Below are positions 9,282 through 58,040 of a stretch of 64,000 nucleotides of DNA, one piece after another (within the stretch, counting starts at the first letter, position 1; each line of letters opens with the position of its first letter). Source of the DNA: Rhodanobacter sp. C05 (lineage in GTDB: Bacteria; Pseudomonadota; Gammaproteobacteria; Xanthomonadales; Rhodanobacteraceae); NCBI RefSeq assembly GCF_002001165.1, contig NZ_MUNQ01000005.1, positions 310,001-374,000 on the forward strand, read 5' to 3'. Under the pieces are notes generated by a model. It was not told the DNA's origin and searched no databases. It saw nothing but the letters and a program-made list of their open reading frames with translations. The position numbers and the translations under genes were made by a program.

Positions 9282-12200
9282 ATGGAAACGATCTATCCCG
9301 CCGGACCTGCCGAGGTGCCGGCCGCTTTCACGCGTCCGGGCCCATCTTATCGGCGCCACGCATGGCTTGCCGTCGGCGGCCTGCTGTTCTTCATCCTGCT
9401 CTACTTTGCGCTGACGGCCTGGTTTGTGTTGACCGGGATCAGCGAGCTGATGAAGCTCGCTGCCGGAGGCGGCTTTCTCGACATCATGGTTGGTGCGAGC
9501 AGCCTGTTCCTGGCGTTTTTCCTGATCAAGGCGCTGTTCTTCATCAAGAAGGGCGGACAGAACGGCGGCATCGAACTTGCGCGCGCGGAGCAACCACGCC
9601 TGTTCGCCTTTCTCGAACGAATTGCCGATGAGGCGGGCGCGCCGCGGCCGCACAAGGTCTACGTCAGCGGCCGCGTCAATGCCGCGGTGTTCTACGACCT
9701 GTCATTGCTCAACCTGCTGTTTCCGTCGCGCAAGAATCTGGAAATTGGCCTGGGCCTGGTGAACATGCTGAATCTCGGCGAGTTCAAGGCCGTCTGCGCC
9801 CACGAATTCGGCCACTTCGCGCAACGCTCGATGGCGGTGGGTCGCTGGGTCTACACGACCCAGCAGATTGCCGCGCATATCGTCGGCAGGCGTGATGCGC
9901 TGGATACATTCCTGCGACAACTGTCGAGGATGGACTTCCGCATCGCCTGGGTCGGCTGGCTGCTTGGGTTGGTGATCTGGGCCCTTCGCGCCGTGGTCGA
10001 CGCCGTGTTCCGGCTGGTTGTGATCGCCCAGCGTGCGCTTTCGCGTGAGATGGAAATGCAGGCGGATCTGGTCGCCGTCTCGCTCACCGGAAGTGACGCG
10101 CTGGTGCATGCGCTGCACCGTCTGCAGATCGCCGATGACGCGTGGGACCGGACCATGAACTTCCTGCGTGGCGAAGTGGCTGCGCACAGTCCTCCCCGCG
10201 ACGCATTTACCGTGCAGCAGGCGCTGGCGGACCGTCTGTGCCTGGTTTACAACGACCCCGACTACGGCCATCGTCCTCAGGTGCCGGTCGAAGGTGGCGC
10301 TGCGTTCCGCGTTTTCGAAGATGCACTCGCGCAGCCGCCGCGGATGTGGTCAACCCATCCCATGAACCACGAGCGGGAGAAGAACGCCAAGCGTATGTAC
10401 CTTGCTGCACCGGCGGACGAGCGCAGTGCCTGGGTGGTATTTGATGATGTCCAGAACCTGCGCGAGAGGATGACCCGCGAGCTGGTCGGCAAGACCGAGC
10501 ATGCCCTTGCCGAGCCGACCGAAACGCTGAGAAAGCTGGAGGAGCAGTTCGGTCGCGAACACCTGAAGTCGTACTACCGGGGCATCTATCTCGGACTCTC
10601 CGCCGTGCGTCAGTCGGCACGCGCCGAGGAATTGTATGAACGCGCCTTGGTCACGGGGCCGCTGCAGCTGGACATGCTGTATCCGCAGAACCTTGGTGAG
10701 GAGCTCGAACGCCTGCGTTCGCTCGAACGGGAACATGCGCTGCTGTGCTCGCTGCGTGACCGTGTTTATGACGCGCCGGACGGCGTCATCCGCTACCGCG
10801 GCAGGATACTCAAGCGTAGCGAATTGCCTGCCGCCATTGCATCGGTCGACAAGGAACGCGCCGCAACGCGCTCCGGTCTGGAAGCCATTCTCAAGAATGC
10901 ACGCAGCCTTCATCTGGCCGCAGCGGCAAAGCTCTCGCCTGCATGGCAGGCGTATTTGCTGGGCTTGCTGCGATTGCTCCATTACGCCGATCACGCCGAG
11001 GCAAACGTACGGGATGCGCAGGCTGGACTCGCGCGCGCCTGGCAGCGGGCAACCGCGCGCGGCAGCATCGATGAGCGTGGAGCTCGCAACATTCTGGCAA
11101 GTGCGAACGATATCCATCGCGCATTGACTCAGGTATTCAGCCAGGCAGCCAGTGTGCATCCGGGAGCGAAGATTCTCGCCGAACTGGGCAAGGACAGCTG
11201 GCCGGCGGCGCTCGGCGCGTACGGCCTCAACACCCCTGCCCGCGCCAATATCAACGAATGGCTGCGCCTTATAGACAAATGGATCAATCACGCCACTGGA
11301 TGGCTGTCGGCATTGCGGCGCACCGCGCTCGATGAGCTGCTGCTGACCGAGGCCACCGTCGCCGCCGCGACCCGTGGCCTGCCACCGCAAGATGCGCCGA
11401 GCACGGCACCTTGGGTTCCCGAGAGTTATCACACCCTGGCGCCGGGCAGTGAGCGCGGCCGCCACGACAAGCCTGACTTCTGGCACAAGTTCCAGACGGC
11501 CAGTGGCTTCTTCCCGGGTCTTGCCCGTGCCGCAGTTGCCGTCACCATCGTCGGATCGGTACTCGCGCTTGGCTGGAGTGTGGGACGTACCACGATCACC
11601 GTGTACAACGGCCTGGCACGCGCAGTCGTTGCAACGGTGGATGGCCATCGCGTGAGCTTGCAGCCGCATTCGCATGCGGACGTTTCGGTGAGTGACAGTG
11701 GCGACATTCGGGTCGTCACACAGGCGAGCGACGAGCAGCCGATCGAAGATTTCATCGCACCCATCAGCCGTGCCGACACCCAGCTGGTGTACAACGTTGC
11801 TGCGGCCAGCCCACTGCGGCAGTGGACGGCAACCTACGGCAACGTGGCGCCGGCGGCACCACACGTGCTGATGCCAAAGCGCTGGCAGGCAGTCTGGGCG
11901 CAATACATTTTCAGCCCGCCGCCGGAACGCATCGAGAGCAAGAGTGGTGGCGGTACGCTGACCGTACTCGACGCTGCCGACAACGATATGCCCGAGTTCA
12001 TCATGAGCCAGGTCCAGGACAAGCAGGCTGCTGCGACCATGCTCCTGGCCCATGTGCGCTTCGATGCACCGGACTCGCCTTATCTGCTGAGCTGGCTGGG
12101 ACTGGCAAGTTCGCTTCCCGACTTCAGCGATGCACTCGCGGCGAGGCGGGCACACTTTCCGAATGATGTCATCGTCATGCGCGTCGAGCAGGACATGGCG

Positions 12201-50870: not shown

Positions 50871-50883
50871 CTTAAAGCGGAAA

Positions 50884-50908
50884 AAGGGGACGCGGCCAAT
50901 CAAGCCCA
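50884..50908 (+). repeat. Left flank repeat of the RAYT locus
   Basis: AAAGGGGACGCGGCCAATCA followed by AGCC. It is the inverted counterpart of the copies at 51693 and 51741 (GGCTTAATTGGTCACGTCCC, then CTTT). Divergence at four or five positions. Confidence 0.75.
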
Positions 50909-50995
50909 TGCCCACCCGGCCCCAGCCTTCCCGCTGACAGATCCGGGCGAGTCATCCAACGCAGAGTGACGGCAAGCTCTCCACCGACAGCAACC

Positions 50996-51700
50996 ATGCC
51001 ACGACTGCCGCGTCTTGAACTGCCAGGCGTGCCACTGCACATCACCCAGCGTGGCATCAACAAGGGAGCGATCTTCCTCGATGCAGAGGATCGCCACCAC
51101 TTCAGGTACCTGCTGCGCAGGGCCTTCCGTGACCATGACATCGCCCTGCATGCGTTCGTCCTGATGGACAACCACTTCCATCTTCTGCTCACTCCGGGTG
51201 CCGTCGGGACACTGTCACGCGCCATGGGCTGGGTTGGCCAGTCGTACGTGCAGGCCTTCAACCTCAGGCACATGCGCTGCGGTGCACTTTGGCAAGGACG
51301 GTTCAAGTCCTGCCTGGTGCAGAGCGAGCACTACCTGCTGACGGTCATGCGCTATATCGAACTCAACCCGGTGCGCGCCGCCATGGTCGACGCGCCGGAA
51401 GACTACCGCTGGTCGAGCGTGCACACGCACCTGGCCCGCGCACGCGATCCGCTCATCACACCCCACCCGCTCTACCTCGCGATGGGACACGACCAAGCCG
51501 AACGCGCCCACGCCTACAGACAATGGCTGGACGCAGGCATCGCGCCGGATGACCTGCAACACCTCCGCACTTATGCCAGCCAGGAGCGTGCGCTGGGCGA
51601 TGAGCGCTTCCAGCGCATGGTGGAAACAACCTTGGGACGCCCTGCCACGTGCCGACCGCATGGGCGGCCAAGGCTGACCCGCGCGAGGGAGGAGGCTTAA
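50996..51700 (+). mobile_element. RAYT: REP-associated tyrosine (Y1-type) transposase
   Basis: 234 residues from ATG 50996. The Y1/IS200-like fold is shown by the strand LPGVPLHITQRGINKGAIF, the HUH motif in LMDNHFHLLLTPG, and the catalytic tyrosine in LTVMRYIELNPVRAAMV followed by the diagnostic DYRWSSVHTHL. Single-domain Y1 proteins flanked by REP palindromes are RAYTs, which are vertically inherited and thought to mobilise REP elements. The stop codon lies inside the right-hand repeat, and inverted repeats flank both sides. It converges with the RHS operon. Confidence 0.9.
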
Positions 51701-51766
51701 TTGGTCACGTCCCCTTTATTGGACCCGCGCGAGGGAAGAGTCTTAATTGGCCACGCCCCCTTTATT
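51676..51766 (+). repeat. 46-bp tandem duplication of the RAYT terminal repeat
   Basis: Two copies (51676-51720 and 51722-51766) of a unit beginning GACCCGCGCGAGGGA, then CTTAATTGGYCACG and CCCCTTTATT, differing at about five positions. The TTAA in copy one ends the RAYT gene on the plus strand, and the TTAA in copy two ends the small exported protein gene on the minus strand. Confidence 0.9.
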
Positions 51767-52192
51767 CCCTTTATTGTATTTTACCGCCGACACTTGCATC
51801 ACAATCGGATAAATGTCGGTCGCAGTCGTGGCCTGCTGCAATTTCCCAACAACCGTCACACGTTGCTTTTCCGCAATCGGTGGCACCCCAAGTGGCAGAT
51901 AAAGCTGCACCTCTGAGATTCCCCCCATCGCATCGAACAAATCAGAACCATGAACATCTATCTTGTGGTCTAGCACGAGTACGAAAATTTTGATCTTTTT
52001 ATCTGTCTTGGGATCGCCAAAATTTGGTGGCCCATACGTCCATGTCATCCTTATCGTCCCGTGCAAAGTGACTACGCACGGCTGATAACAATATTCCAGA
52101 TTACCGCTTGCCTTTGCATCGACTGCCAAAGCCCCGCCGGCACAATATGTCAGCGCAAGAAAAATCGTAATTAATAAAGTTCTTAGCATCAT
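51743..52192 (-). CDS. Exported small protein, candidate immunity protein of the RHS toxin
   Basis: 149 residues with a clear signal peptide (LRTLLITIFLALTYCAGGALA, 1-23). The mature part has one Cys pair (LEYCYQPCVVTLHGTI) and the segment TWTYGPPNFGDP..IFVLVLDHKIDV, which resembles the conserved core of DUF4431-type proteins (a GPPNxxS segment followed by a strand). Its ATG overlaps the stop of the RHS-toxin gene (ATGA), the usual arrangement for toxin and immunity. The Sec signal places it in the periplasm, matching a peptidoglycan-attacking toxin. The last ten residues (NKGNKGGVAN) are encoded by the RAYT repeat. AT-rich relative to the flanks. Confidence 0.7.
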   Translation of the reverse strand: MMLRTLLITIFLALTYCAGGALAVDAKASGNLEYCYQPCVVTLHGTIRMTWTYGPPNFGDPKTDKKIKIFVLVLDHKIDVHGSDLFDAMGGISEVQLYLPLGVPPIAEKQRVTVVGKLQQATTATDIYPIVMQVSAVKYNKGNKGGVAN

Positions 52193-53199
52193 TGGGAGAA
52201 CGGCCCCGGTCCAGAATTGTAGATTTCTACCGAGCCACCGCTTTTGAATCCTTCTTGAGCTTTTATGGCATCAATCGTTCCACTTAGCTGAGCAGGGGTC
52301 AGCGAGTTGATCGTCGTACTTGCAGGGGCCCCAGTGCGGGCATTGATGAACGCCGCATATTGTTTTGGATTATTGGAGTCTGAGCTCGGCGCGAAGCGTT
52401 GAATCGCTTCCTCTATAGTGTCATTCCCATAAACAGAGGTGAGTGTGTCCTGAAGTGCACGGTCACCCGCAGAAGCGGACGAAAAGATAGCGAACGGCTG
52501 CTTCGCAGTGACATTGTCATGTGCCCCAGTAGGTGAATAGTCCCATCCAAGTGCCAGCTTGCTGCTTGCCGATTTACTGCTTCCTTTGCGCAAATCACCC
52601 GGATTATTATCTCGCGAAGGGCGGCTTCCCGTTCTTTTCTCCACGGCTCCATCCGCGTACTGAATGTACGTAATGTGGCCCGAATTGGACGCTCGTACTG
52701 CCGTGACAGACGCGGCCGTGATCATCGTTGTTGTCGTTCCGGTACTAGCGCAATTTCCATTGTCGTCTTCAATGTGTGACCCCGTACACCGCCCATTCGG
52801 ATCCATATTCACAACCGGATTGTTGTTGGCATAAGCATAGCGGCTGAAATTGAACGTGTTTCCAACGGCTGGCCCCACCGGATCGGTACTGATAAACCGC
52901 CCCACCACCGGATCGTAATACCGCGCCTGCATATACACCAACCCGGTATCCGGATCGTTCACATGCCCCGTATACCCTGGCCCGTTCGGCGGTGTACCCA
53001 GCGCCTGGCTCCCATACGGCGCATAGTCGTACGTCGCTGTGATGTTCCCACTGGCATCGGCCTCCGCCAGCGGCGTGCCCTGCGGGTCGGTGTACACATA
53101 GGTCACCGAGCCCGCATGGACCCCAGTGGCCATCAGCACCATCAGCCCGGCCATCACACCCAGCAGCCGATGGCGTGCCCTGCTCATGAACGGGCTCAT
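52189..53199 (-). CDS. RHS-core protein with C-terminal P5-like peptidoglycan hydrolase domain (candidate toxin)
   Basis: 336 residues from ATG 53199, overlapping the stop of the large RHS gene (ATGA). Residues 1-30 form a Sec signal (RHRLLGVMAGLMVLMATGVHAG). Residues 31-137 are the RHS-repeat-associated core: YVYTDPQGTPLAEADASG, YDYAPYG, DPDTGLVYMQARYYDPVVGR, FISTDPVG and NPVVNMDPNG. After a linker, residues 193-318 resemble phage P5-type lysozyme/transglycosylase domains: SRDNNPGDLR, PFAIFSSASAGDRALQDTL, TIEEAIQRFAPSSDSNNPKQ, YAAFINARTGAPAS and AIKAQEG. This replaces the variable toxin tip of RHS proteins. The C-terminal half is AT-rich. Similarity is by eye and not yet tested. Confidence 0.72.
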   Translation of the reverse strand: MSPFMSRARHRLLGVMAGLMVLMATGVHAGSVTYVYTDPQGTPLAEADASGNITATYDYAPYGSQALGTPPNGPGYTGHVNDPDTGLVYMQARYYDPVVGRFISTDPVGPAVGNTFNFSRYAYANNNPVVNMDPNGRCTGSHIEDDNGNCASTGTTTTMITAASVTAVRASNSGHITYIQYADGAVEKRTGSRPSRDNNPGDLRKGSSKSASSKLALGWDYSPTGAHDNVTAKQPFAIFSSASAGDRALQDTLTSVYGNDTIEEAIQRFAPSSDSNNPKQYAAFINARTGAPASTTINSLTPAQLSGTIDAIKAQEGFKSGGSVEIYNSGPGPFSQ

Positions 53200-56100
53200 G
53201 GGTTGCCTCCCAAGGTGACCGTGCAGGTGCTGGCGTTGCATCCAATCCCCGAGCCCGTGTCTGCACCCAGCACCCGCTTGAGCTTCGTCATCGTGGCACT
53301 CGTTTGGGCACCCCCACCGCCCACCGTGAATTGACCACTGATCTGCAGAGGCGCACTACATCCCGCGATACTGCAAGCCGTCAGCTGCTGAGCCGTGTAA
53401 CTGCCTGAAGGAAAGTTGTAGCTGTTGGTGGCCACGACGTAGGTGTACGTGCCCAGATGGCCGTTCTTGCCGGTCGCCGTGAAGTTGTAACTGGTGGCCC
53501 ACGCCATCGCATTCCAGGTCATCGACGTGACGCCATTGGTGGTACTCATGGCGAAGTTCGTCGGCGTGGCCGGTACCTGGGTCACCGACACCGGCGTGGA
53601 GGCTGTCCAGCCGCTGGTGCCGTAGGCATTGCTGGCGGCGACCTGATAGGTGTAGGTGCCGCCCGGCGCACTCGTCACGCTGTAGGAGGGCGTCGTGATG
53701 CCGCTGGCGAGCGTGGTCCAGGCGCCGCCGTTGAAGCTCTGCTGCACGGCATAGGTGGCGACTCCGGGCGAAGCTGTCCACGTGACCGTGAAGGGGGCGT
53801 ACGTCAGCACGCCCGGTCCCGCCGGGTTGGCCGGCGGCGCCGGCCATACACCCAGCGTAGCCGAGCCCGTCCAGCCGCCACACGTACTGCTGCAGCCCTG
53901 CACCTGATAGACATAGCTGCCACCGGCCCGACCGCTCAGTGCGGCGCTGGTGCCGCTGCCGGCATACACCGTCACCCACGCACCGCCGTTGGCGCTCTCC
54001 TGCAGGACATACGACGTCGCCAGCGGCACCGCGCCCCAGCTCACGGTGTAGTTGCTGCTGCTGGGGTTGGCGCTGAAGCTCACCGCGCCCGGCGCTGCCA
54101 GTTGCAGGGAGGCGTTGCGGGCGATCAGCTTGCTACCCAGGTAGATGAAGTTGGTGGCCTGCGATGCACCCGGCGCGTACTGGTACATCAGCTGGCCGCC
54201 GTGGTCGTAGAAGTAGTAGGTCGGCGTGCCGCTGGCCGAGGTCTTCTGCACGCGCCGGCCATTCGCGTCGTAAAGGTAGCTGTCGTAGCCCGTCACCTGG
54301 CTCAGCTGGTCCTTCTGGTCGAACAGCAAGACCACGCCGTTGCGGTTGGTGAGGTTGCCGCGGGGGTCATAACCGAAGCTGCTGACCGAACCACCGCGCG
54401 TGATGCTCTGCAGCCGGTTGGTCGGATCGTAGGCGTAGACCGAGGTCACTCCCGCCGACAGGCGCGTGCGCAGGTTGTTGAGCGGGTCGTATTGATACGA
54501 CTCGGTGCCCCACAGGGAAGGCGCCACGGCGCTGGTCAACCGGTTCAAGCCATCGTATTGGAAGGTCTTGTTGCGCTGGCCGTTGACCAGATCCTGCACG
54601 CTGACGATGTTGCTGTCGCTGTCGTAGAACAGGTCCTCGCTGAGGTTCAGCGTGCTGGCGTTGCCATAGGAAAAGTTGCTGGTCAGTTGGCGCGCATTCT
54701 GCTGGACCAGATAGCTCGTGCCGTTGCCGTAGGTAAAACCCTGTACCTGGCCATTCGGGTAATACGTGACGCCGGTGGCATAGCTGCCCACCTGGGTGGG
54801 ACGATCCAGCGCATCGGGCGCGTAGCTGACCGTCTCGCCATTGGGATAGCTGATCACACTGAGGCTGCCATTGGCGTCGTGGGCATAGCCCAGCGCCAGC
54901 GCGCTCTGGCCGACCACATTGAGGGACTCGCCGGTCAGCATGTCGCGGTAGTTGTACAGACCATGCCAGACGGTATTGCCCGAGGTCGCCCACTGCAGGT
55001 TGCCCGCCGCGTCGTACTGGTACTGGGTGCTCTGGGTGCCCGCTGGCGGGGCGATCGCCTTCACCCGGTTCATCGGGTCGTAAGTGAACAGGGTCTGCAC
55101 CGATGCAGCCACCTGACTCTGCCCGCAACCGGTTCCGGTGATGCTCAGCCCGGCGGCGCTCCATTGCAGATTGTTGGCGCCGTCGTAGGCCATCACCGAG
55201 TCGCCGCTTTCCGGTTCGGTGGTGCGGCACAGGCGATGATAGCTGTCGTAGACCAGGGTCTTGGTGACGCTGTCGCTTTCGGTGCCGTTGTAGATACCCG
55301 ACTGGGTGATCGACAGGGGACTGCCGTAGTAGTCGCGGGTGATGGTCTGGGTGACGCCAGCTGGTGCCTGCACCAGGATCGGCTTGTCATAGGACGGCTC
55401 GTCGAACACCTGGCCACGGGTGGTGGTGACGTTGCCTTTGGGATCGGTCACCTGCATGCCGGCACCGGACAGGTAGGCGGTACTGGTGGTCAGCGTACCC
55501 AGTTCGGAATCCTGCTGGCTGGTGGTCAGTCGTTGCAAGGCATCGTAGGCCTTGTGCGTACCGACCGTGATCGCCGACAGGTCCGGCGTGCCACTGACCG
55601 GATAGGACGTGAACGTGGCCAGGCCGCGCGGGTCGTAACTGTTGGCCGTGCTGATGTCCGAACCTGCCGTGCCGGCGATCGATGTGTCGCTGAGCAGCGG
55701 CCGCAGCATCGCGTCGAAATAGGTCACATCGGTGCCATTGCCGGTGCTGACCGTGCGCCGCCAGTGGCCAGCGGGGATACCCCGTTCGGCTGTGGTGACA
55801 TAGGTGAAGTTGTAGTTCTTCGTGTTCCACGCCACCTCGTCGCCCGTCGGGTAGCTGATGGTCTGCGGCCAGCCTACGGCGTTGTACGTGTAGGACGTGG
55901 TGTGGCCGTTCTGATCGGTGACAGATTGAATCTCGCCATAAACATCCACGACCGCGGACTGGCTGGTGCCGTCGGGATAATTGACCAACTGCGGAATGCC
56001 GCGGTAGTAATTGCCGAGGCTGGTGGTTTGGCTGTTGCCGTCTTCGAAGCTGGCCAGCTGGCCGGCAGCATTGTAGGTATAGGTCAGCGTCGTTTCGCCG

Positions 56101-58040
56101 AAGTGCGCACTCGAGTACAGCGTGGCGTTGCTGCCGGTGTAGACGTTCTGGGTTTCCGTTTCGCCGTTCTGCATGTTGACCACCTGCAAGGGCTGGCCGA
56201 GCACCCAGAGCGCCAGGTTGTCGTAGTAGGTGGTTTGTTCTTCAAGCGATACCTGACCGGGGATGTTGTTGTACTTGTTGACCTGGTATGGCCGCGCAAA
56301 CACGTCGAAGGCCACGTTTTGATGCGTATAGGTATCGCCATCCTGTGTCGTGATTGTGGAGGTCACCGGACGGAGGCGGCCCACCATCGGATTTTTGTAG
56401 ATCGGCTGCAACGACAAGCCCACGTTGTCGGGAAACGCCTGGTTGCCGATCTGGCTGTCGTCCAGGTAGGTATAGGTCACCGTGCGCATCATGGTACCGG
56501 AGGGTGAATCCACTTCCGTTTGCAGAAGACGCCCTTCGTTGTTGCCGTACTGCACGCCGAAGACGTTCTTGGTGATCTCGGTCGGCCCGGTGACGGTCAC
56601 GGTTTTCGACACAGAACAATTACTGCATCCGGTCGGAATATAGGTCTCCTGCGGACTGCTGTATGGGGCTGACGCGGTGTAGTACGTCGCACTGCCGCTG
56701 GAAAAATTGTTCAGATAGTCATAGGTCCAGGTCTGTGCGCTCAGCCCTGCCCCACTGATCTGCTTCGAAATCAGCGCGAAGTCGTCGAAGTGGTCGACGA
56801 CAGGCGGATACATGGTGTCGCCATCGCCGTACGTGCAGCTGTTTTGGGGGACATAGGTGCGCATATTGCGCTGGTAGTTGAACGTGAACGTGCCTTGCGC
56901 GCCGGAGGGTGCGCCGATCACGTAGACGAAACTGCCCGTCCGGGGCAACGGATCGACTTGACAGTGTTCTTGAGGCGGCGGGTCTTGCGGCGGCGTACGG
57001 ACCGTGACCAGTGAGCCGGACGCTGCGGTGTACGTCCACTGCGAGCCATCCGGCAAGGTCACGTTTTGCAGCGTGCCGCTCGGGGTATAGCCGTAATGCC
57101 AAGTCCGCGTTCCTGCTGTCGCACTGCTGATGTTGTTTCCCGACCAGGTGATGTCGATTTCCCGGCCATCGTTGGCGGTGATGCTGGTCAGCTGAGACGA
57201 AGCGTTGTAGCTGTACTTGACCCAGTTGCCGAAGCGGTCCACCACCTGGGTCGCCAGCAGGAAGATCCGCGAGCGATTGGCCCCGACCGTTGTGCTGCTA
57301 TTGCCGGCCGGATTAGGCACCTGGTAGGACGCGGCGGTCGTGGGGTTCACCAGCATCCAGTTCATGGTGTAGCGCACGCCGTCGGGCGAAACCACCACGA
57401 ACGACTCGCCCGGATAGCCATTCGCCGTACTGGGGGCGCACATGGCTCGGTACAGGCTCTTGGTCACCCACGGATAACTGTTCCCGTCGGTCACCGCGGG
57501 AAGCTTGGTCTCGGTGTTCAGCAGCCACTCTTCGTCGTCGACTTCGCCCGGGATGTACAGCAGGTTGCCGTCCCAAATCTGGTATGTCGGCTCGACGGTT
57601 CCGTTCACCAGGGTGAAGGGCGACGTCTGCACACTGCAGCGCGAATAGGTACCCTGATTGAGATTGGTGGGCAGTTGAACTTCCCAGCCGTTCTCGGCGG
57701 CGAAGTGGCCGTCCATGTACGGCACTTGCAGATCCCACTCGCCAAACCCGCCCAGGCTGCCCACCTGCAAGCCGGCTTTCTGGACCAGAAAATGACGGCC
57801 GAGCCGAACCGGCAAGCGACTGTTGCCCGGCAAGTCGATGTCGGTGACGTCGAACTGCGTCCCGCCGCTGTACAGGCTGACCTGATCGCCGAACATCGTC
57901 GAGGTCAGCGGTGTTACCTCCTGCACCGCACGCAGATCACGGGTGTAGTCTTCGTAGACTTGGTCCGTGTCCTGGGCATGGACACCCCAAACCCACGCCA
58001 TGACCGCCAAAAGGCAGATCCCTTGCCGAAGTGCACGCAT
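53196..58040 (-). CDS. Exported RHS/YD-repeat protein with Fn3-like C-terminal domains
   Basis: 1614 residues with a signal peptide (GICLLAVMAWVWGVHAQ, 7-23). The N-terminal 350 residues form a beta-rich head (PLTSTMFGDQVSLYSGGTQF, LPVRLGRHFLVQKAG). YD/RHS repeats run from about 250 to 1310 (YDSYHRLCRTTEPESGDS, YQYDAAGNLQWA, YAYDPTNRLQSI, YDPRGNLTNRNG). Three fibronectin-III-like domains follow (about 1320-1570; YTVSWGAVPLATSYVLQES, FTVTWTASPGVATYAVQQS, TSMTWNAMAWATSYNF). It ends in a short tail with a Cys pair (GCNASTC). The RHS core and toxin tip are absent and are encoded by the next gene, joined by ATGA. No VgrG or PAAR gene is near, so secretion looks Sec-dependent. Confidence 0.9.
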   Translation of the reverse strand: MRALRQGICLLAVMAWVWGVHAQDTDQVYEDYTRDLRAVQEVTPLTSTMFGDQVSLYSGGTQFDVTDIDLPGNSRLPVRLGRHFLVQKAGLQVGSLGGFGEWDLQVPYMDGHFAAENGWEVQLPTNLNQGTYSRCSVQTSPFTLVNGTVEPTYQIWDGNLLYIPGEVDDEEWLLNTETKLPAVTDGNSYPWVTKSLYRAMCAPSTANGYPGESFVVVSPDGVRYTMNWMLVNPTTAASYQVPNPAGNSSTTVGANRSRIFLLATQVVDRFGNWVKYSYNASSQLTSITANDGREIDITWSGNNISSATAGTRTWHYGYTPSGTLQNVTLPDGSQWTYTAASGSLVTVRTPPQDPPPQEHCQVDPLPRTGSFVYVIGAPSGAQGTFTFNYQRNMRTYVPQNSCTYGDGDTMYPPVVDHFDDFALISKQISGAGLSAQTWTYDYLNNFSSGSATYYTASAPYSSPQETYIPTGCSNCSVSKTVTVTGPTEITKNVFGVQYGNNEGRLLQTEVDSPSGTMMRTVTYTYLDDSQIGNQAFPDNVGLSLQPIYKNPMVGRLRPVTSTITTQDGDTYTHQNVAFDVFARPYQVNKYNNIPGQVSLEEQTTYYDNLALWVLGQPLQVVNMQNGETETQNVYTGSNATLYSSAHFGETTLTYTYNAAGQLASFEDGNSQTTSLGNYYRGIPQLVNYPDGTSQSAVVDVYGEIQSVTDQNGHTTSYTYNAVGWPQTISYPTGDEVAWNTKNYNFTYVTTAERGIPAGHWRRTVSTGNGTDVTYFDAMLRPLLSDTSIAGTAGSDISTANSYDPRGLATFTSYPVSGTPDLSAITVGTHKAYDALQRLTTSQQDSELGTLTTSTAYLSGAGMQVTDPKGNVTTTRGQVFDEPSYDKPILVQAPAGVTQTITRDYYGSPLSITQSGIYNGTESDSVTKTLVYDSYHRLCRTTEPESGDSVMAYDGANNLQWSAAGLSITGTGCGQSQVAASVQTLFTYDPMNRVKAIAPPAGTQSTQYQYDAAGNLQWATSGNTVWHGLYNYRDMLTGESLNVVGQSALALGYAHDANGSLSVISYPNGETVSYAPDALDRPTQVGSYATGVTYYPNGQVQGFTYGNGTSYLVQQNARQLTSNFSYGNASTLNLSEDLFYDSDSNIVSVQDLVNGQRNKTFQYDGLNRLTSAVAPSLWGTESYQYDPLNNLRTRLSAGVTSVYAYDPTNRLQSITRGGSVSSFGYDPRGNLTNRNGVVLLFDQKDQLSQVTGYDSYLYDANGRRVQKTSASGTPTYYFYDHGGQLMYQYAPGASQATNFIYLGSKLIARNASLQLAAPGAVSFSANPSSSNYTVSWGAVPLATSYVLQESANGGAWVTVYAGSGTSAALSGRAGGSYVYQVQGCSSTCGGWTGSATLGVWPAPPANPAGPGVLTYAPFTVTWTASPGVATYAVQQSFNGGAWTTLASGITTPSYSVTSAPGGTYTYQVAASNAYGTSGWTASTPVSVTQVPATPTNFAMSTTNGVTSMTWNAMAWATSYNFTATGKNGHLGTYTYVVATNSYNFPSGSYTAQQLTACSIAGCSAPLQISGQFTVGGGGAQTSATMTKLKRVLGADTGSGIGCNASTCTVTLGGNP

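Follow-up and report, generated by a model that had tools for sequence, protein, structure and literature searches.

A split RHS locus of Rhodanobacter sp. C05 with a predicted cell-wall hydrolase tip, and its place in a clade-wide family of signal-bearing, predicted RHS toxins

Introduction

RHS toxins of Gram-negative bacteria have been studied mainly as one-chain cargoes of the type VI secretion system (T6SS) or as Tc toxins. In Rhodanobacter sp. C05, a 64,000-nucleotide (nt) stretch of contig NZ_MUNQ01000005.1 (assembly GCF_002001165.1, positions 310,001 to 374,000; the whole of this stretch is called the window here) holds an RHS locus in which the shell and the core lie on two polypeptides with predicted signal peptides, and a third gene encodes a small, predicted exported protein. 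Why should an RHS protein be divided between two exported chains, and what might the variable end of the second chain and the small protein do? The reading favored here, at a probability of roughly 0.62, is that the locus encodes an antibacterial polymorphic toxin of the RHS type, divided between two genes, together with a small exported protein specific for its tip. As judged from sequence, the locus belongs to a family of split, signal-bearing RHS toxins that spans the clade.

Organization of the locus

Three minus-strand genes (51743-58040) are chained by two 4-nt ATGA overlaps, one between shell and core-tip genes (53196-53199) and one between core-tip and small genes (52189-52192). An earlier reading made from the letters of the window (the sequence-only reading) had described these overlapping genes, and the open reading frame (ORF) list and the sequence agree with it. 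Its placement of shell and core on separate polypeptides, each with a signal, also holds: the shell matches RHS_repeat (PF05593) in eight stretches (2.3e-34, Pfam) and phrog_10385 (1.1e-19, PHROGs), and the core-tip chain matches Rhs_assc_core (TIGR03696) at residues 59-136. Signal peptides were recognized by reading at the starts of all three products: MRALRQGICLLAVMAWVWGVHA, MSPFMSRARHRLLGVMAGLMVLMATGVHA, MMLRTLLITIFLALTYCAGGALA. The features are as follows.

53196..58040, minus strand: shell chain, 1614 amino acids (aa); signal at residues 1-22 (by reading), RHS/YD repeats, C-terminal fibronectin-III (FN3)-like region
53199..54008, minus strand: C-terminal region of the shell with FN3-like sequence; PDB sequence matches to titin (5.7e-9) and to the Fn3-like protein 3mpc (8e-6)
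52189..53199, minus strand: core-tip chain, 336 aa; TIGR03696 match, 4.5e-22
53113..53199, minus strand: signal of the core-tip chain, residues 1-29 (by reading)
52789..53112, minus strand: RHS-associated core, residues 30-137, with D106 and D133; self-cleavage predicted after residue 137
52192..52788, minus strand: tip, residues 138-336 (199 aa), predicted phage-type cell-wall hydrolase; matches to phrog_873, Gp29 of 9vvp and 7q47
52252..52254, minus strand: codon of Glu316, candidate catalytic residue
51743..52192, minus strand: small exported protein, 149 aa, probable immunity protein; OB-like beta-barrel model

The G+C content is 0.624 in the shell, 0.613 in signal plus core, 0.528 in the tip and 0.469 in the small gene. 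Given this drop at the core-tip junction, the tip and the small gene resemble a cassette derived from another source. The locus is more than a chance assembly: its tip is found in eight listed proteins, and many genomes repeat the layout.

Two chains as one RHS protein

Three relatives in Rhodanobacter are single chains (L092, 1650 aa; L093, 1607 aa; L094, 1611 aa), in which the core begins within about a dozen residues of the last shell repeat. Between shell and core of these three, no second signal was found, and the FN3-like region of the window had no tblastn match at 1e-6. Because these relatives are fused, the view that the shell and the core-tip chain together correspond to a single-chain RHS protein is supported. 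The same cassette occurs in both forms: between the fused L093 and the split L007, the tips are 67% and the downstream genes 71% identical.

The core keeps the aspartate pair of the RHS autoprotease. Residues D106, D133 and G136 are invariant in 121/121 proteins (query included) and in 93/93 chains from the loci described below, two sets that overlap. In the RhsA autoprotease the aspartates are D1324 and D1346, and cleavage falls at W1350 (PMC8765631); at the same spacing from the second aspartate, self-cleavage is predicted after residue 137 of the core-tip chain. The only other Rhs_assc_core match of the genome (L003, 627-5966 of G000:C22) lies in a single chain of 1779 aa, which is of a different type and has a core ending in DPYGL.

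A clade-wide family

A search of 5.8 billion proteins with the core-tip chain gave 1779 matches. Among the best 120 matches, 118 consist of leader, core, DPxG-type junction and a tip of 48-217 residues, and two (P0011 and P0063) are without leader. Scanning one genome per species yielded 234 encoded relatives. The top 80 of these fall into 77 loci, mostly from Rhodanobacter, Dyella, Luteibacter and Frateuria; viral contigs add nine loci. The resulting 86 loci contain 97 cores, of which 93 have a usable start and four were dropped. By a crude rule, a signal is present in 87/93 core-tip chains and in 26/26 shell frames of 1500 aa or more lying upstream, compared with 6/38 window ORFs as a control, although the first two figures are biased upward, because a start favoring a signal was picked there and the control used the first start. 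One chain without a signal (L024, at 8039), with a diverged core (39%), is counted in the 93. In the 31 cases with an upstream frame of more than 900 aa that matches the shell, the gap between shell and second chain is -32 to 202 nt, and four of these gaps are the same 4-nt overlap as in the window.

The tips vary widely behind this conserved core: the 212 tips with 50 aa or more fall into 58 similarity clusters, of which 25 have a single member. When 40 locus chains were scanned with Pfam, seven tips could be named, as phage lysozyme, M91 peptidase, Tox-REase-7, LHH and HNH nucleases and, below the curated cut-off, M15 peptidase and deaminase. PF05593 in the shell, TIGR03696 in the second chain and variable tips in 58 clusters make up the combination that defines an RHS polymorphic toxin.

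The tip as a predicted cell-wall hydrolase

The tip is common to eight listed proteins, with 51-82% identity to the query. Residues 191-330 match phrog_873 'endolysin' (6.8e-16) and residues 185-330 match phrog_2276, a tail tape measure family (9.1e-13; both PHROGs). A profile of eight sequences gave two PDB matches, Gp29 of 9vvp (9.1e-8) and the Enc34 endolysin 7q47 (0.032). The endolysin of Hafnia phage Enc34 (PHA02564 family) is muralytic on permeabilized Gram-negative cells, and Glu131 has been put forward as its catalytic residue (PMC8943055). It resembles the tip in a profile match across the NNPG region and the helical part and in a conserved Glu near the end; unlike the tip, it serves phage lysis and carries a transmembrane tail. 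Glu316 of the core-tip chain is invariant in eight aligned sequences, and Gp29 has a Glu in the same column; since the alignment with Enc34 ends just before that column, Glu316 holds the rank of a candidate catalytic residue. By profile, the tip is probably a phage-type peptidoglycan hydrolase.

The sequence-only reading had likened the tip to phage lysozymes of the P5 type on the strength of short motifs, which are indeed present in the chain. The phage part of this claim stands, with phage virion lysozymes (phrog_873, Gp29) and the Enc34 endolysin matched by profile, whereas the phi6 P5 family was not matched: P5 is absent from the two PDB sequence matches and from the 50 Foldseek rows shown, both searches being of limited reach. 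Structure prediction, which that reading had proposed for the tip, divides in the same way, with 7q47 as top Foldseek match (prob 1.00, E 5.7e-3; next unrelated entry 0.12) of a poor model and P5 not among the rows shown.

The small protein and its counterparts

The small protein has nine listed relatives, two of which are found on contigs of the same size as those of core-tip relatives (P0128 with P0006, P0130 with P0011). Among the 93 clustered chains of the 86 loci, only that of L053 (Dyella monticola) shares the tip of the window, and only in this locus does a homologue of the small protein occur, at 137 nt downstream (30% identity, 8e-9). The L053 tip (9893-10789) ends early and is without the Glu316 region, and is therefore probably a decayed copy, beside which the immunity-like neighbor has been kept. 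This co-occurrence supports the earlier expectation that a small exported third gene would serve immunity to a wall toxin, and the small protein is a probable tip-specific immunity protein. Its structure model is an OB-like barrel. A lipobox was seen by eye in 8/9 relatives; the window protein has LTYC at that place and is more likely soluble. DUF4431 (PF14485) is weakly matched by 3/10 family members (best E 0.0029), the window protein not being one of them.

A 3' feature of the small gene may be mentioned here. A RAYT-like transposase ORF, named by reading, lies at 50966-51700 on the plus strand and is flanked by REP-like repeats (region 50883-51766): two 45-nt copies in tandem at 51676-51766 (91%) and one in inverted orientation at 50883-50906. 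The tandem copies reach into the 3' end of the small gene, and the last residues of the small protein are without counterpart in most relatives.

A second pairing of this kind is found in L008 (9914-11370), where a phage-lysozyme tip (PF00959, 1e-23) is followed by an exported LprI-type lysozyme inhibitor (PF07007, 2.5e-17); by its domains, it is an independent case of a wall-type tip beside an exported antidote-like protein. Across loci, the gene downstream of a wall-type tip is called exported at its first start in 4/5 cases, as is that of the window by reading, although three of the five loci were assigned through a single weak M15 match (in L013, at 1.8e-4 and under the curated cut-off) and the cluster around it. 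The L013 downstream protein has no signal at its first start, yet is homologous to the exported one of L044. In the nuclease-linked cluster, most of whose 20 tips are without a Pfam name of their own and are joined by similarity, exported downstream genes number 0/20 under a stricter rule and 4/20 under a looser one, all four matching DUF416. With any start within the first 45 codons allowed, the figures are 5/20 vs 47/68 (p 6e-4). The wall and nuclease groups behind all these figures were defined only after the downstream table had been seen. The named downstream proteins of the nuclease-linked cluster are DUF416 (four), DUF4265 and, weakly, DUF2251. DUF416 proteins follow the tips of L023, L029, L032 and L034, the first of which weakly matches deaminase, and DUF416 can be put forward as a candidate immunity family.

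Phage-type hydrolases can be domesticated, and the shell carries FN3-like sequence; both would suit a role of the tip and the small protein in wall turnover of the producer or in surface adhesion instead of killing. Such a role is improbable in view of 212 tips in 58 clusters behind one conserved core. Nuclease and lysozyme tips with differing downstream genes, and one cassette shared by fused and split loci, are likewise the pattern of polymorphic toxins.

Proposed mechanism, orphan chains and shell sharing

If the locus does encode a two-gene antibacterial toxin, both chains would be exported unfolded through Sec, and in the periplasm they would join and form a closed RHS cocoon, inside which the core would cut the tip free. 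The wall of the producer would be shielded because the tip would be freed within the cocoon, and the periplasmic small protein would block any tip that gets loose or comes in from a sister cell. Inside the target, the released tip would cleave periplasmic peptidoglycan, and crossing of the inner membrane would not be needed.

Several observations count against this reading. The Enc34 sequence match is weak on its own (0.032), the AlphaFold model of the chain (nine sequences) is poor, with a mean pLDDT of 47.6, and Foldseek gave no match under 0.001. The shell match of L008 carries an in-frame stop, so that locus may be decayed, and in L016 an M91-peptidase tip is accompanied by an exported partner, counter to a simple compartment rule. 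Moreover, 38/93 chains are without an upstream shell or FN3-like match, although for 29 of them 5 kb or more of sequence lies on that side, and two Rhodanobacter genomes (G162 and G171) have a close core and no shell at E<=1e-40. Finally, T6SS and split chains co-occur more often than expected, as set out below.

Because of the orphan chains and these two genomes, the shell may be dispensable for some chains. Together with the signal of the core-tip chain itself, they also speak for an explanation in which this chain would be a self-sufficient exported toxin, its RHS core a leftover recombination handle, perhaps a self-cleaving leader, and the shell unneeded. That explanation is unlikely, given that the aspartate pair is kept in every chain of both sets (121/121 and 93/93), that shell and second chain are so close in the 31 cases and that fused forms exist. 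The distribution of shells argues in the same direction. The genus was taken as GTDB Rhodanobacter, as coordinates in G163 and G164 coincide with those in Rhodanobacter sp. B04 and C03. In its 45 genomes, counted by eye, each of the 20 that have a shell match belongs to the 22 with a close core, and 11/21 strains with an orphan chain (by eye, among the 77 loci) also have a shell or FN3-like locus.

The 45 genomes contain 46 close cores (three fused, one in a 647-aa frame) and 28 shell matches (three fused). In G149, an array (L095, C1:2852000-2868000) consists of one shell, a first tip, a partner gene, an FN3-like stub, a second tip and a partial third tip. Orphans and arrays of this kind suggest that one shell may serve several tips. 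There is precedent in YenB, which takes YenC1-3 (PMC11067744). The broader proposal, still a tentative one that is possible without being probable, is that one periplasmic, Sec-exported shell in the Rhodanobacteraceae is loaded by any exported core-tip chain, encoded in tandem or at a distance. The payload would then be chosen by protein association and not by recombination, giving mixed toxins free of T6SS.

Delivery

The sequence-only reading had noted that no T6SS gene lies in the window. This agrees with the genome, as the single PAAR, VgrG and TssC matches of the genome all lie on contig C24 and the window on C11, but the genome does have a T6SS. Among the 45 Rhodanobacter genomes, 22 have a close core (E<=1e-40), 23 have TssC and 16 have both; the co-occurrence noted above is 16/22 vs 7/23 (Fisher p 0.007). 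Six genomes, including the single-contig G149, have a close core without TssC. Thus, T6SS is not required, though it is not independent of the split chains.

In principle, the shell could be a T6SS cargo loaded on the VgrG/PAAR of contig C24, with the signals misread, and the higher frequency of T6SS in genomes with split chains points that way. This is highly improbable: the Pfam scan found no PAAR on the shell, the PAAR and VgrG of the genome are on another contig, signals occur on both chains in most relatives, and six split-chain genomes are without TssC. For the two-gene, Sec-exported toxin favored here, type II secretion or release by lysis fits better than T6SS does. The type II secretin GspD is above cut-off in 43/45 Rhodanobacter genomes, a distribution that permits a type II route and does not support it.

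If shell and payload are exported separately across the family, the RHS cocoon can assemble after export, and payloads would be exchangeable at the level of protein. The family would also supply a set of small exported core-tip chains and adjoining candidate antidotes, mostly without known domain.

Comparison with known systems

Orphan rhs-CT and cdiA-CT modules are extra tip-immunity cassettes beside a full-length toxin; unlike these, the stand-alone cassette here forms a full ORF that has a start and a signal of its own. WapA is reportedly a Sec-exported, single-chain RHS toxin, and the signal-bearing RHS toxins surveyed by Zhang and colleagues are likewise said to be single chains. Like the locus in the window, WapA and the signal-bearing RHS toxins of Zhang et al. 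2012 (PMC3482391) combine a signal peptide, an RHS region and a variable tip, but in the window the last RHS segment and the tip form a separate exported gene.

RhsA of Pseudomonas protegens, a T6SS effector, has an RHS cocoon, a C-terminal aspartate-pair autoprotease, a toxin tip and an immunity protein (PMC8765631), like those predicted for the window, where the immunity protein is a probable one. It is one chain linked to VgrG, whereas the window has two signal-bearing chains with no PAAR or VgrG beside them.

The sequence-only reading had suggested that a Sec-exported, two-chain RHS toxin with a muralytic tip would be a new arrangement, and this has to be qualified: two-chain RHS shells are known from TcB/TcC, and the split layout recurs beyond the window. 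The idea of a two-chain RHS protein has its precedent there. In the main that reading holds, although it was narrower than the family described above. In TcB/TcC (YenB with YenC1/C2/C3), as in the window, the RHS shell comes from two polypeptides; TcC, like the core-tip chain, ends in a hypervariable toxin and cleaves itself, which in the window is predicted, and one B chain accepts a C chain encoded elsewhere (PMC11067744). The Tc C chain has a conserved N-terminal domain of ~680 residues, compared with ~108 core residues in the second chain of the window. SpvB/TcdB-type domains were not recognized in the window shell, whose sole Pfam match at E<=1 is RHS_repeat. Unlike in Tc toxins, each of the two chains in the window has a signal, and the pair is followed by a probable immunity gene. 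The unusual part, as far as these sequences indicate, is a clade-wide, Sec-exported RHS protein whose tip chain is a separate and often orphan gene.

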